From positions 1 through 24,231 of IMG/VR virus record IMGVR_UViG_3300031834_000046: a stretch of DNA of 24,231 nt; one strand, written 5' to 3'. This document shows, piece after piece, positions 15,352 to 20,515 of the stretch (positions are counted from its first letter, which is position 1; each line of letters opens with the position of its first letter). The notes beneath the pieces were generated by a model. That model did not search any database. It was not told the origin of the DNA and saw only the letters and a list, made by a program, of their open reading frames with translations. Both the position numbers and the translations under genes were made by a program. Origin of the DNA: a virus.

Positions 15352-15401
15352 GTTAAAATGGTCGCGCCGTAAGCAATATAAAAGTCCTTTGCAAAAAACT
15401 C

Positions 15402-15698
15402 ATGCTACCTCTTCTAACTACTCTGTCTGTCTTAAGCTCTTGGTATGGTCCTGGTTTCCACGGGAACCTAACAGCCAATGGTGAACGATACAATCAAAAC
15501 GGCCTTACGGCAGCGCACAAGACACTACCATTTGGAACACGCCTCAAGGTTTGTTTCAATAGGTGTGCCGTTGTTCGGGTCAATGATCGTGGTCCCTATG
15601 CTCATGGCAGGGGATTAGATCTAAGTAAAGGTGCGGCTGACAAGATCGGTCTGACCGGCTCTGGAGTTGGTAGGGTCTCCGTGACTCGCCTAAATTAA
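15402..15698 (+). CDS. rlpA: RlpA-like double-psi beta-barrel protein, putative lytic transglycosylase
   Basis: A 98-residue protein that is almost a bare RlpA domain. It shows SSWYGPGFHGNLTANGERYN, LTAAHKTLPFGTRLKV, VVRVNDRGPYAHGRGLDLSK and GVGRVSVTRL, the successive signature strands of the family. Bacterial RlpA cleaves septal glycan lacking stem peptides; the presumed catalytic residues, here E28, H39 and D62, are present. There is no SPOR domain. The N-terminus (MLPLLTTLSVLSS) is hydrophobic but lacks a basic n-region, so it is at best a weak signal peptide; in-frame codons upstream would encode KVLCKKL but contain no usual start codon. It sits between scaffold and capsid, where T7 has no gene. 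It may be a virion-associated or lysis wall enzyme; activity is untested. Confidence 0.88.
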   Translation: MLPLLTTLSVLSSWYGPGFHGNLTANGERYNQNGLTAAHKTLPFGTRLKVCFNRCAVVRVNDRGPYAHGRGLDLSKGAADKIGLTGSGVGRVSVTRLN

Positions 15699-15705
15699 AT
15701 GGATT

Positions 15706-15733
15706 GGGGGCACCTCAAAGTCGGACCCCCTTT
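15706..15733 (+). terminator. Possible weak terminator or attenuator after the rlpA-like gene
   Basis: A hairpin with a five-pair GGGGG/CCCCC stem, possibly extended inward by two C-G pairs, then only TTT before CCC. The short T-tract makes it a weak terminator; it could equally be a processing site or one arm of an alternative RNA fold with TTGAGG at 15737-15742. Confidence 0.35.
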
Positions 15734-15762
15734 CCCTTGAGGAAGGATACCTCGTTAAAAAA

Positions 15763-15774
15763 CCAACCGGTTGG
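15763..15774. repeat. 12-base perfect palindrome CCAACCGGTTGG
   Basis: A perfect inverted repeat with no spacer, about 105 bases upstream of the capsid ATG. Length and symmetry suit a dimeric protein site; as RNA it could form only a four-pair stem with a CCGG loop. No identical copy was noticed elsewhere in the window. Confidence 0.6.
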
Positions 15775-15775
15775 A

Positions 15776-15806
15776 GTATTGGCCCGCTGCGGTGGACACC
15801 CAATAC
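15776..15806 (+). promoter_or_regulatory. Stem-loop GTATTGG...CCAATAC upstream of capsid
   Basis: A seven-pair perfect stem (15776-15782 with 15800-15806) around a 17-base GC-rich loop. It starts one base after the 12-base palindrome. There is no T-tract after it, so it is not a simple terminator; it could protect the 5' end of a processed capsid mRNA, as RNase III hairpins do in T7. Confidence 0.45.
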
Positions 15807-15832
15807 AACACATCTATTGCCTTATCTTCAAA

Positions 15833-15846
15833 TACAAGTACTTGTA
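15833..15846. repeat. 14-base perfect palindrome TACAAGTACTTGTA
   Basis: A perfect 14-base inverted repeat, 32 bases before the capsid ATG and just upstream of a TATAAA-like element (15852-15857). This arrangement looks like an operator, or a symmetric element overlapping a promoter. No matching -35 box at the right spacing was seen. Confidence 0.55.
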
Positions 15847-15878
15847 ATCGTTATAAATCCCTTTTATTCATTATCCTA

Positions 15879-16898
15879 ATGACTGCTACCGTATCTTATC
15901 TTGGCGCCGCTAACAAAGCGGGTGGCCAATCTCCTACTTATGCTCAGCGGACTAACTTGTTCCTGAAGCTCTTTACGGGTGAGGTTTATGAAGCCTTCCG
16001 TAACTCTACTATTGCTAAGGATCTGGTCATGAACCGGACCCTGCGTGGTGGTAAGCAAGCTCAATTCATTCACACTGGCCGCATCACTGCTGCTTATCGC
16101 ACTCCTGGTGTGCCCATCCTCGGTTCGGGCAACCCAGCAGCCGCTGAAACCACCATCGCGTTGGATGACCTGCTGGTCGCCTCTGCTTTCGTTGATAACC
16201 TCGACGAGATCATGAGCCAGTATGACATCCGTGGCCCTATCGCCCGTCAGATTGGTCAAAGCCTGGCTGAGTTCTATGATCGCCGTATCTTCCGCGTTCT
16301 GGACAAAGCCTCTGCTGCTTCGGCTGCTGTGACCGGTGAGCCTGGTGGCTTCCAAATCAACCTTGGTGCTTCCAAGGAATATGACGCTCAAGCACTGGTT
16401 GATGGCTTCTTTGAAGCTGCTGCCCGTCTTGATGAAGTGGCTGCTCCTAAGGATGGTCGCGTGGCTGTTCTGAGCCCCCGTCAGTACTATGCCCTGATCT
16501 CTCAGGTTGATACCAATATCCTTAACCGTGAGTACGGTGCTGCCGGTGGTAGCATGAACTCTGGTGATGGTCTCTATGAGATCGCTGGTATCTCCATCAA
16601 GAAGTCCAACAACATCCCCTTCCTTGGGAAGTATGGCTCGGCTTCTGGCGCTGCTATTGATGCTGCTGCCGTGACTGGTGAGAACAACACCTATGGTATT
16701 GCTACTGACTTCACCAACAGCTGTGGTTTGATCTTCCACCGCGATGCTGCTGGTGTCGTTGAGGCTATTGGCCCCTCCGTGCAAACCACGGGCGCCGATA
16801 CCAAGGTGATCTACCAAGGCGACGTGATTGTGGGCCGTCTGGCCTATGGTTGCGGTGCTGTGCGCGTCGGCGTTGCCGGTGCTTTCCGTAACACCTGA
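15879..16898 (+). CDS. Major capsid protein (T7 gp10-like)
   Basis: A 339-residue HK97-fold capsid protein (T7 gp10A has 345). The start MTATVSYLGAANKAGGQ is at 15879; an upstream in-frame TTG at 15771 would translate the control region and is rejected. Family segments are clear: LFLKLFTGEVYEAFRNSTIA, SGK-like RGGKQAQFIHTGRITAAY (T7 GKSAQFPVLGRTQAAY), DNLDEIMSQYDIR (T7 DIEDAMNHYDVR), then GVVEAIGPSV and a C-terminal AYGCGAVRVGVAGAF. Codon use is distinct from its neighbours: about half of leucines are CTG and none TTA or CTA, as expected for the most highly expressed gene. No Shine-Dalgarno sequence is visible. A terminator follows. Confidence 0.96.
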   Translation: MTATVSYLGAANKAGGQSPTYAQRTNLFLKLFTGEVYEAFRNSTIAKDLVMNRTLRGGKQAQFIHTGRITAAYRTPGVPILGSGNPAAAETTIALDDLLVASAFVDNLDEIMSQYDIRGPIARQIGQSLAEFYDRRIFRVLDKASAASAAVTGEPGGFQINLGASKEYDAQALVDGFFEAAARLDEVAAPKDGRVAVLSPRQYYALISQVDTNILNREYGAAGGSMNSGDGLYEIAGISIKKSNNIPFLGKYGSASGAAIDAAAVTGENNTYGIATDFTNSCGLIFHRDAAGVVEAIGPSVQTTGADTKVIYQGDVIVGRLAYGCGAVRVGVAGAFRNT

Positions 16899-17564: not shown

Positions 17565-20515
17565 TGGCAGCCATCTCTCAGAAAATTTTTAGTCTTGTTG
17601 GGGGTGTGTCTCAACAACCTGATACAGTTAAGGTTGGCAATCAACTACGCATTTGTGATAACTATTATCCAGACATAGCCACTGGTTTGACCAAACGACC
17701 AGGGCTTAAAGGGATTAGTAAGCTGGCCAATGCGGTGGCTGATGGTACTTGGTTTTCTATCTTTAGGGATGATCAAGAGAAGTACATCATTCAGTTTAGC
17801 AAAGCAGGTGCCCTTAAGGTATGGAGTGCCAGCAATGGTGTCCAACAAACAGTTAACACAGTAGCTGCTGAATCTATTGCGTATGCTGTTCATACAACGA
17901 CAGATGATCTGCAAACTCTTCAGATCAATGATTACATCTTTGTTCTTAACCGTAAGAGAACCGTAGCAGCAGGTGTTGTTAGTAGTGCTGCTCAAACGCC
18001 ATATGCTTTTGCAGCCATTAATACAATAGCGTATAACTCCACCTACTCGATTAAGCTTGATGCTACCACGTTTTCTTATACTACCCCTTCCACATCAGCA
18101 ACTCAATTAAACATTGCTGATATTGTCAACAACATTGTTAATACAATTAATGTCAACACTAGTTGGGTAGCGACCGCTATCGGTAACATTGTTCATATTC
18201 GTCGTGCCAATGATGCTGACTTTGCAATTGAAGCAAAAGGTGGCAGTACCGGAACATCCATTGATGCGTTTAAAGGTTCTGTTGTTTCTGTTGCTCAACT
18301 TCCCAAGCAGTTTCTTAATAACCTAAAGATTAAGGTTGCTGGTTCTGTTGAATCAGGTGCTGATGACTATTGGGTTATCTTTAAAACCAGTGACAACACC
18401 ACTAGTGGCTATGGTTCTTGGGAAGAGACAATTGCTCCAAGCACTGTTACTGATCTAGATGAGGAGACGATGCCTCATGTTATCATCAGGGAAGCTAATG
18501 GAACCTTCACCTATCGTCAACTGGATTTAGCTTCTACTGGTACTGCTGGTACAACATCCGTCAGTGGTGTTCCCACAAGTGTTACCATTACTGGTGCTAC
18601 AAGTGCTGGCCACACTGTTGGAGAGATCTTTGCACCAACGGGTGGTACTGGCAACAACCTAAGACTACGAGTGGATAAGGTTCAAGATTTCTATTCATTG
18701 AATAATACCTTAGCTAACTCTGGCACTTATGTTAAGTCAGTCAGAGGCAGCATTAGAAGCCGTGGAATGAGTGGTAGTAGTACTTATGTAATTTATAATT
18801 ATACCTACTTTTGGTACGAGAATAACGCTCAAATTGGTGTAACTACGAATACCAATCCGTTGCAAATTGGTTACAAAACTTACTCAGTTGGAACATCGTT
18901 TCAAAGCATCAGCAATGAAACAAGGGCTGGCCTTAAGATTGAAGAACGCATCAATGGTTTGATTTCTGCCATTAGCATTGTTCAAGCCGGTCAAGGATAT
19001 ACAGCAACCAACACGGTTCAAAACACGGCAGGTGATACGTTTACCATTGCAAGCGTTAATACTGCTCCAGTTGAGGGAGATTTTAGTCGACTAAAATTCT
19101 GGAAGTATCGGGAAGTGGGTGATGCTACCACCAACCCATTACCCTCCTTTGTAGGGTTCCCAATTGATGCTATTTCCTTTTATAAGAACCGTCTGATCTT
19201 TACCTCTCGTCAAAATGTCATCTGCTCACAGGCAGGAGATTACTTCAACTTCTTTGCTAGCACGGTGATTACAATTGTTGATAGCGACCCTATTGACATT
19301 AGTGCTAGTAGTCTTAAACCAGTTCGACTGCGGTATGCTATTCCTACTCAAACAGGTCTGCTGTTGTTTGGTGATAATGCTCAGTATGTCCTGACAACAA
19401 CAACAGAAGCATTTTCTCCTAAGACTGCTGAGATCAACCTACTGTCTTCTTATAGTCAGTCTGAAAGTGTTTCTCCTCTTGATATTGGGGAAAGCTATCT
19501 ATTCTTGGAAGAAGGTGATAAGGCTTCATCCGTCTATGAGATGATGCCCAATGGTACGGATAAACCCAATACCATTGAATTAACTAGGATTATTCCTTCT
19601 TATATTCCTTCTGCTATTTATGACATGAAGGCTTCTGTGTCAGCAGGAACCGTGGCTCTTCTTAGCAAGCAAGAGCTTAGCAGCATGTATCTCTATCGGT
19701 TCTTCCGCAATGGAGATCAAAAGGTATTATCAAGTTGGTTCCGATGGACGCTTCCTGGTACGATTGAGTTTACTGATTTTGATCAGGATCAAATGTTTGT
19801 TGTTACCAAGCACGGTAGTAACTACGTTCTCAGTAAGGCATCCTTATTGACAGACACCCCAAGTGAGTCACTCTTCTTTGAGGGTCAGTATCTTGATGTA
19901 CGCCTGGATCTCTTTGATTATAAACCTACTCTTAACTATAATGCTGGTACAGGTTTAACTCGTGTCTGCTTTAAGGATGGGTTTGAAGATACCAATGAGC
20001 AACCAGTATTAATCTTCCTAGATCCTGCTATCTCTGGTTATTTTGAAGAACAAACTCTTCAATATGATGCCACCGCAGCAGTAGGACAGAGGTACTTCCT
20101 TACGGTTGAGGGCAATCAAACCACATCTAAGTTTGCTGTTGGGTATAAGTATGAAGCATTGGCTCAACTGCCTGCGTTCTACTTTATCAAAGATGCTCAG
20201 AGTGGACTCAAGGATACTGTTAACATTCCCAGGGTTAGTAGGATCAAAGTAAACAGTTACAATTCCGGCCCCTACAAGGCTGTGGTTCGATCTGAGGGTC
20301 GTGATGATTTCACCCTGGAACTACCACAGATCAATGCTGATTATTATCTAGCTAATAACATTCCTATCATTCGGAATGCTCAAAGTACGATACCAGTATT
20401 GGCAAAGGGTGACCAGTTTGAATTTGAATTAATTGCCGATAGTCCATTCCCAACAGCATTTACTTCTCTTGATTGGGAAGGAACATACAACAACAAGGGT
20501 ATCCAGTCCCTTTAA
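17564..20515 (+). CDS. Tail tubular protein B / nozzle (T7 gp12-like) with an inserted domain
   Basis: A 983-residue nozzle protein; T7 gp12 is 794. The N-terminal signature SLVGGVSQQPDTVKVGNQLR (11-30) and the conserved core PSFVGFPIDAISFYKNRLIF, DYFNFFASTVITIVDSDPID and the C-terminal LDWEGTYNNKG match the T7 protein. The extra length is mostly one block, residues about 323-505, between the strand TFTYRQLDL and FSRLKFWKYREV, where T7 has only a few residues. That block is rich in Gly, Thr, Ser and Tyr and holds GHTVGEIFAPTGGTGNNLRL and VQAGQGYTATNTVQ, patterns resembling beta-rich adhesin modules. Six copies would form the tail tip, so the insert is probably exposed. Confidence 0.93.
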   Translation: MAAISQKIFSLVGGVSQQPDTVKVGNQLRICDNYYPDIATGLTKRPGLKGISKLANAVADGTWFSIFRDDQEKYIIQFSKAGALKVWSASNGVQQTVNTVAAESIAYAVHTTTDDLQTLQINDYIFVLNRKRTVAAGVVSSAAQTPYAFAAINTIAYNSTYSIKLDATTFSYTTPSTSATQLNIADIVNNIVNTINVNTSWVATAIGNIVHIRRANDADFAIEAKGGSTGTSIDAFKGSVVSVAQLPKQFLNNLKIKVAGSVESGADDYWVIFKTSDNTTSGYGSWEETIAPSTVTDLDEETMPHVIIREANGTFTYRQLDLASTGTAGTTSVSGVPTSVTITGATSAGHTVGEIFAPTGGTGNNLRLRVDKVQDFYSLNNTLANSGTYVKSVRGSIRSRGMSGSSTYVIYNYTYFWYENNAQIGVTTNTNPLQIGYKTYSVGTSFQSISNETRAGLKIEERINGLISAISIVQAGQGYTATNTVQNTAGDTFTIASVNTAPVEGDFSRLKFWKYREVGDATTNPLPSFVGFPIDAISFYKNRLIFTSRQNVICSQAGDYFNFFASTVITIVDSDPIDISASSLKPVRLRYAIPTQTGLLLFGDNAQYVLTTTTEAFSPKTAEINLLSSYSQSESVSPLDIGESYLFLEEGDKASSVYEMMPNGTDKPNTIELTRIIPSYIPSAIYDMKASVSAGTVALLSKQELSSMYLYRFFRNGDQKVLSSWFRWTLPGTIEFTDFDQDQMFVVTKHGSNYVLSKASLLTDTPSESLFFEGQYLDVRLDLFDYKPTLNYNAGTGLTRVCFKDGFEDTNEQPVLIFLDPAISGYFEEQTLQYDATAAVGQRYFLTVEGNQTTSKFAVGYKYEALAQLPAFYFIKDAQSGLKDTVNIPRVSRIKVNSYNSGPYKAVVRSEGRDDFTLELPQINADYYLANNIPIIRNAQSTIPVLAKGDQFEFELIADSPFPTAFTSLDWEGTYNNKGIQSL

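Follow-up and report, generated by a model that had tools for sequence, protein, structure and literature searches.

The capsid leader of a T7-like Synechococcus phage

The window analysed here, a 24,231-nt stretch of an IMG/VR virus record (IMGVR_UViG_3300031834_000046), covers part of the genome of a T7-like Synechococcus phage; its gene order is RNA polymerase, DNA polymerase, portal, scaffold, rlpA-like ORF, capsid and tail genes (names from ORF translations and the annotation of relatives). The capsid leader comprises the 180 nt between the end of the rlpA-like ORF (15698) and the capsid ATG at 15879. It holds all three features recorded by a first-pass annotation exactly where they had been placed: the perfect palindromes CCAACCGGTTGG (12 of 12 bases, Pal1) and TACAAGTACTTGTA (14 of 14 bases, Pal3), and the stem-loop GTATTGG/CCAATAC (P2 in Table 1), which begins after a single intervening A following Pal1. 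In the sequence of the window, no Shine-Dalgarno motif stands directly 5' of the ATG. The Syn5-type phage promoter ATTGGGCACCCG (PMC3950665) has no match in 15699–15878 with up to 3 mismatches; at the same tolerance, its 13 matches in the window are not above chance (15.9 expected), and we rejected it as an element of the leader. No Rfam 15 family passes in 15400–16000 of the window, the best being GP20-b with 16.2 bits against a gathering threshold of 36.2 bits.

Table 1. Positions of the leader features, the capsid gene and glutamine-II riboswitch matches (window positions unless a locus is named).
Feature	Position	Strand	Remark
H0 hairpin, GGGGG-CACCTCAAAGTCGGA-CCCCC	15706..15730	+	Directly 5' of the element
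P0 hairpin, GAGG/CCTC	15739-15742/15750-15753	+	Covariation A-U to U-A; 97.4% of cells paired
Pal1, perfect palindrome CCAACCGGTTGG	15763..15774	+	Self-complementary; letters vary among relatives
P2 hairpin	15776..15806	+	Outer stem 15776-15782/15800-15806
P2 inner stem	15784-15787/15792-15795	+	One G.U
P2 loop, TGCG	15788-15791	+	
P2 asymmetric internal loop	C15783 / ACAC 15796-15799	+	
Pal3, perfect palindrome TACAAGTACTTGTA	15833..15846	+	Self-complementary; letters vary among relatives
P6 start-proximal hairpin, GTAAT/ATTAT	15844-15848/15870-15874	+	Pairing in the window read from the sequence
Major capsid protein gene	15879..16898	+	3' of the leader
RF01704 matches	L090 561-617; L097 1488-1542; L096 1641-1694; L086 1558-1641; L093 1639-1690		

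Four hairpins accompany the palindromes. The loop of H0 (GGCACCTCAGAGTNGGACC) is kept in relatives while its stem varies freely. At least 120 stretches of IMG/VR DNA contain H0 (including L098–L142); in nearly all of those inspected, it stands directly 5' of the leader element. It has no match in Rfam, and a host origin was rejected, bacterial genome contigs giving only 3 MAG matches. Other phages carry a hairpin resembling a tRNA T-arm in its place, and Syn5 has a tRNA-like fold there, seemingly without an anticodon arm. We conjecture that H0 or the T-arm-like hairpin sets the 5' end of the RNA. A descriptor of P2 matched 140 of 242 leaders and none of 1205 background windows. P6, nearest the start codon, is weak in the window, where it covers the last 3 bases of Pal3, and stronger in relatives (e.g., GGGAA/TTCCC). 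It was detected in 48% of leaders versus 15% with shuffled tails. In 93 of 99 cases its 5' arm takes in the last 1–3 nt of Pal3, and the median distance from the end of its 3' arm to the ATG downstream is 9 nt.

Taken as a single sequence, the palindromes are close to chance and only mildly unusual. Perfect palindromes of at least 12 nt are no more frequent in the window than expected (5 present, 6.1 expected), and about 0.13 pairs with centres within 84 nt are expected. Their significance comes from the leaders of relatives. Elsewhere in the window, an 18-nt palindrome, ATTTTAGTCGACTAAAAT, lies at 19080–19097 within the gene for tail tubular protein B, and several relatives have its core TTTTAGTCGACTAAAA 5' of the rlpA-like ORF (L004 2460, L036 2466, L019 2442); this recurrence is probably coincidence, though a common 16-mer is odd.

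Palindromes persist in relatives while their letters change

We compared 246 distinct capsid leaders of T7-like cyanophages, taken from IMG/VR contigs and from Syn5, P60, P-SSP7, S-CBP1-4 and others. Loci were collected as a window group (80 IMG/VR loci with related capsids) and three further sets of 80 loci each, centred on S-CBP4, P-SSP7 and S-TIP28. A perfect palindrome of at least 10 nt occurs within 140 nt of the capsid start in 58/58, 65/65 and 43/55 distinct leaders of these three sets, respectively, versus 8–9% of background windows; the remaining 12 S-TIP28-type leaders have none of that length, and S-CBP4-type leaders lack the full Pal1. In the window's own group, leaders totalling 9.0 kb hold 96 palindromes of 12–14 nt, whereas 467 kb of sequence elsewhere hold 62 of at least 12 nt. 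The first-pass annotation would have given up its reading had close relatives lacked the palindromes; they are present in close and distant relatives alike. Controls behaved differently, with no palindrome of at least 10 nt in the capsid leaders of T7, Roseobacter phage CRP-125 and Pelagibacter phage HTVC011P.

The palindromes stand in the same places with differing letters, forming 92 haplotypes in the 246 leaders, and their centres take 15 of the 16 forms possible for a palindromic tetramer. In the window group, Pal1 appears as CCAACCGGTTGG, CCAGTCATGACTGG, CCAGCACGTGCTGG, CCAGTTCGAACTGG, CCAGTCTAGACTGG and CCAGCTAGCTGG, and Pal3 as TACAAGTACTTGTA, CCAAGTACTTGG, CCTAGATCTAGG, CCTTCATGAAGG, CCTTCTAGAAGG, CCAAACGTTTGG, CCAACATGTTGG, CCAAGCGCTTGG, CCAAAGATCTTTGG and more. 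On the capsid-gene tree, the centre changed from one palindrome to another at least 12 times in Pal1 and at least 16 times in Pal3, counts that recombination between leader and capsid gene could inflate. Some relatives have a short third palindrome of 8 nt between P2 and Pal3 (TTGCGCAA, ATCCGGAT). We found no evidence that the two palindromes of one leader are orthogonal, with different centres that would prevent cross-pairing: the centre is the same in 2 of 59 combinations, versus 2.85 expected by shuffling.

Cultured phages carry the element as well. We read the leaders of S-CBP1 to 4, S-SRP01, P60, Syn5, S-TIP28, S-CBP42, SS120-1, NATL1A-7, P-SSP2, P-SSP7, S-RIP2 and DSL-LC07; each contains one or more palindromes of at least 8 nt in the leader region, in most cases where they would be expected, and the majority have a UACG or UGCG hairpin loop with an AYA bulge after it. 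In the cultured phages, the Rfam 15 threshold is passed by tRNA and glutamine-II alone, both outside the leader element. Several of these phages have matches to the glutamine-II riboswitch (RF01704) a few hundred bases 5' of the capsid gene (Table 1). Six loci of the window group (L067, L070, L072, L080-L082) seemed at first to lack the element, but their core is intact further 5', behind an ORF that is possibly a homing endonuclease; in L067-type phages this ORF puts about 380 nt between core and capsid gene. The element keeps a fixed position 5' of one gene across many phages, and a search with model R1 gave a single match in the whole window.

The P2 motif is absent from the T7 gene 10 leader. 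By eye, P2-like hairpins can be seen in the capsid leaders of HTVC011P (GCCTGATACGTCAGATAAC; L459 19376-19626) and CRP-125 (GGCCTCATGCGTGAGACAACC; L457 341-592). Their presence suggests that the P2 module predates the palindromes or is more widely distributed than they are.

Selection acts on RNA of the coding strand

Covariation was scored in two alignments. In the window-type alignment (30 cores; P0, Pal1 and P2 scored), 96.2% of cells are paired and the covariation score is 0.335 versus 0.128 when shuffled, neither value being reached in 500 shuffles; pairing was lost when the partner was slid by one column. In the P-SSP7/S-CBP-type alignment (30 cores), P2 comes first, with Pal1 and then another hairpin (GTGG..CCAC or GTCG..CGAC) after it; here too 96.2% of cells are paired, and the score is 0.300 versus 0.083 (0/500 shuffles). 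Palindromes with one mismatch tell the strands apart. In leaders, 25 haplotypes have a U.G or G.U mismatch and 4 have A.C or C.A, compared with 30 and 38 in background DNA (Fisher p = 1.2e-4). Since mismatches are mostly U.G and rarely A.C, coding-strand RNA is what selection constrains. Judged by comparative sequence analysis, the leader is a conserved structured RNA of a new family, with compensatory base-pair changes in homologues. The same comparison demonstrates that its structure is conserved on the coding strand, with selection on self-complementarity through the centre of the palindromes.

Proposed self-pairing between capsid mRNAs

A hairpin requires paired arms and no particular loop sequence. 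Among tetraloop hairpins with stems of at least 5 bp, however, the loop is palindromic in 27 of 30 haplotypes in the Pal3 zone, versus 7 of 312 in the coding background, a test free of bias from the palindrome search itself. In Pal1, the two adjacent central columns are complementary in 100% of the rows in which they are present, and three types of pair occur there (AU, CG and UA). A self-complementary segment is therefore kept through its centre while its letters vary. As the two innermost bases covary and are unable to pair within one chain, pairing between molecules is the best reading, and we infer that the capsid leader RNA forms homodimers. Cofolding gave a median homodimer energy gain of -15.8 kcal/mol for leaders versus -8.5 kcal/mol for control segments of the same loci, 1.2% of controls reaching the leader median; this gain is partly a direct consequence of the palindromes and so is no independent evidence.

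The perfect two-fold symmetry, near a gene presumed to be highly expressed, would also suit DNA operators for a dimeric phage or host protein, as the first-pass annotation had proposed. Half-sites and centres nevertheless differ among close relatives while the symmetry is kept, and no half-site is conserved across the 92 haplotypes and 15 centre types, which disfavours operators because a base-reading protein would fix the sequence. The mismatches are moreover U.G on one strand, the coding strand, and the flanking hairpins, with their RNA-type covariation, form one unit with the palindromes. We regard operators as highly improbable, and the same evidence speaks against the accompanying proposal of sites for dimeric packaging or replication proteins: the element behaves as RNA. 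Plain intramolecular hairpins with four-base loops, serving as stabilisers or as RNase or ribosome landmarks, are harder to set aside. Each perfect palindrome also folds alone into 4–5 bp, as minimum-energy folds show, this hairpin may be favoured over the dimer at cellular concentrations, and U.G mismatches suit any RNA stem. Loop symmetry would then be meaningless, however, which sits poorly with the excess of palindromic loops over background (27/30 versus 7/312) and with covariation of two central bases that one chain cannot pair; the 8-nt middle palindromes (TTGCGCAA, ATCCGGAT) would give stems of only 2 bp. On balance, we find this explanation unlikely.

Self-pairing might serve another purpose if the leader were cut out as a free RNA that multimerises and acts in trans, in assembly or packaging or as a host-directed RNA, instead of acting in cis on capsid translation. 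H0 or the tRNA-like hairpin marks a 5' border, homo-oligomeric phage RNAs are known (GOLLD, ROOL, phi29 pRNA), and the spacing imposed by the ORF of L067-type phages, about 380 nt, means that the core need not adjoin the start codon. Yet both Pal3 and P6 are no more than 60 nt from the ATG, at a distance that is kept, and the element is 5' of the capsid gene in the loci studied. A free trans-acting RNA is conceivable but rather doubtful.

The reading that we consider probable is a structured leader of about 140–180 nt through which capsid mRNAs pair via Pal1 and Pal3, in competition with P6. The leader RNA would carry the hairpins H0, P0, P2 and P6 together with the self-complementary Pal1 and Pal3, and two capsid mRNAs, or two processed leaders, would join through these palindromes, either as an extended duplex of 12–14 bp or as kissing tetraloops. 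Because the 3' arm of Pal3 has 1–3 bases in common with P6, Pal3 pairing would compete with the full P6 and could alter the structure at the start site. Capsid translation or mRNA stability could then depend on mRNA concentration; an effect of the dimer on capsid synthesis is our guess. A more daring proposal is a self-sensing mRNA, in which Pal3 dimerisation switches the start-proximal hairpin and so forms a concentration-dependent capsid switch made of the mRNA alone, with fast-diversifying palindromes. We put this forward tentatively and would not expect it to hold in full.

Comparison with known RNAs and significance

The T7 gene 10 leader belongs to the homologous capsid gene and has a hairpin near its 5' end. 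It differs in being driven by a phage promoter and a Shine-Dalgarno sequence and in having neither a palindrome of at least 10 nt nor P2. Structured cis-regulatory RNAs do occur in cyanophage genomes (PhotoRC-II, manA, wcaG and the glutamine-II riboswitch), but these are tied to other genes and none matches the capsid leader. The phi29 prohead RNA is likewise a phage RNA and forms multimers by loop-loop pairing; it joins two different loops rather than palindromes and is part of the packaging motor, and our leader has no Rfam match to it. Palindromes mediate RNA homodimerisation in retroviral leaders (MoMuLV PAL1/PAL2 with SL1/SL2; HIV-1 DIS; PMC7357161), which share with the phage element a structured 5' leader and two palindromic segments. 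Those leaders, however, belong to RNA genomes packaged as dimers, whereas ours is an mRNA leader of a dsDNA phage in which the palindrome letters turn over. For OLE and GOLLD, intermolecular pairing was argued from covarying adjacent bases in palindromic tetranucleotides (PMC12286853). The same adjacent-base argument is made here with many more changes; OLE, GOLLD and ROOL are large free-standing RNAs, whereas the capsid leader has longer palindromes, two of them, and no Rfam match. By analogy, retroviral PAL1/PAL2 leaders and OLE/GOLLD/ROOL would be the closest counterparts in mode of action, and we do not claim membership in either group.

In the literature searched, for the most part open-access papers, we found no published description of the capsid leader element. 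Few RNA homodimers in nature are well supported as biologically relevant (PMC12286853, PMC7357161). To our knowledge, none of these few is the leader of a phage mRNA. The covariation of the palindrome centres, with 15 of 16 tetramers used and at least 28 changes on one tree, makes the sequence evidence that self-pairing is under selection unusually strong. The element is present in cultured, well-studied phages of abundant marine cyanobacteria (Syn5, P60, P-SSP7 and others), and self-pairing of their capsid leaders is therefore directly testable.
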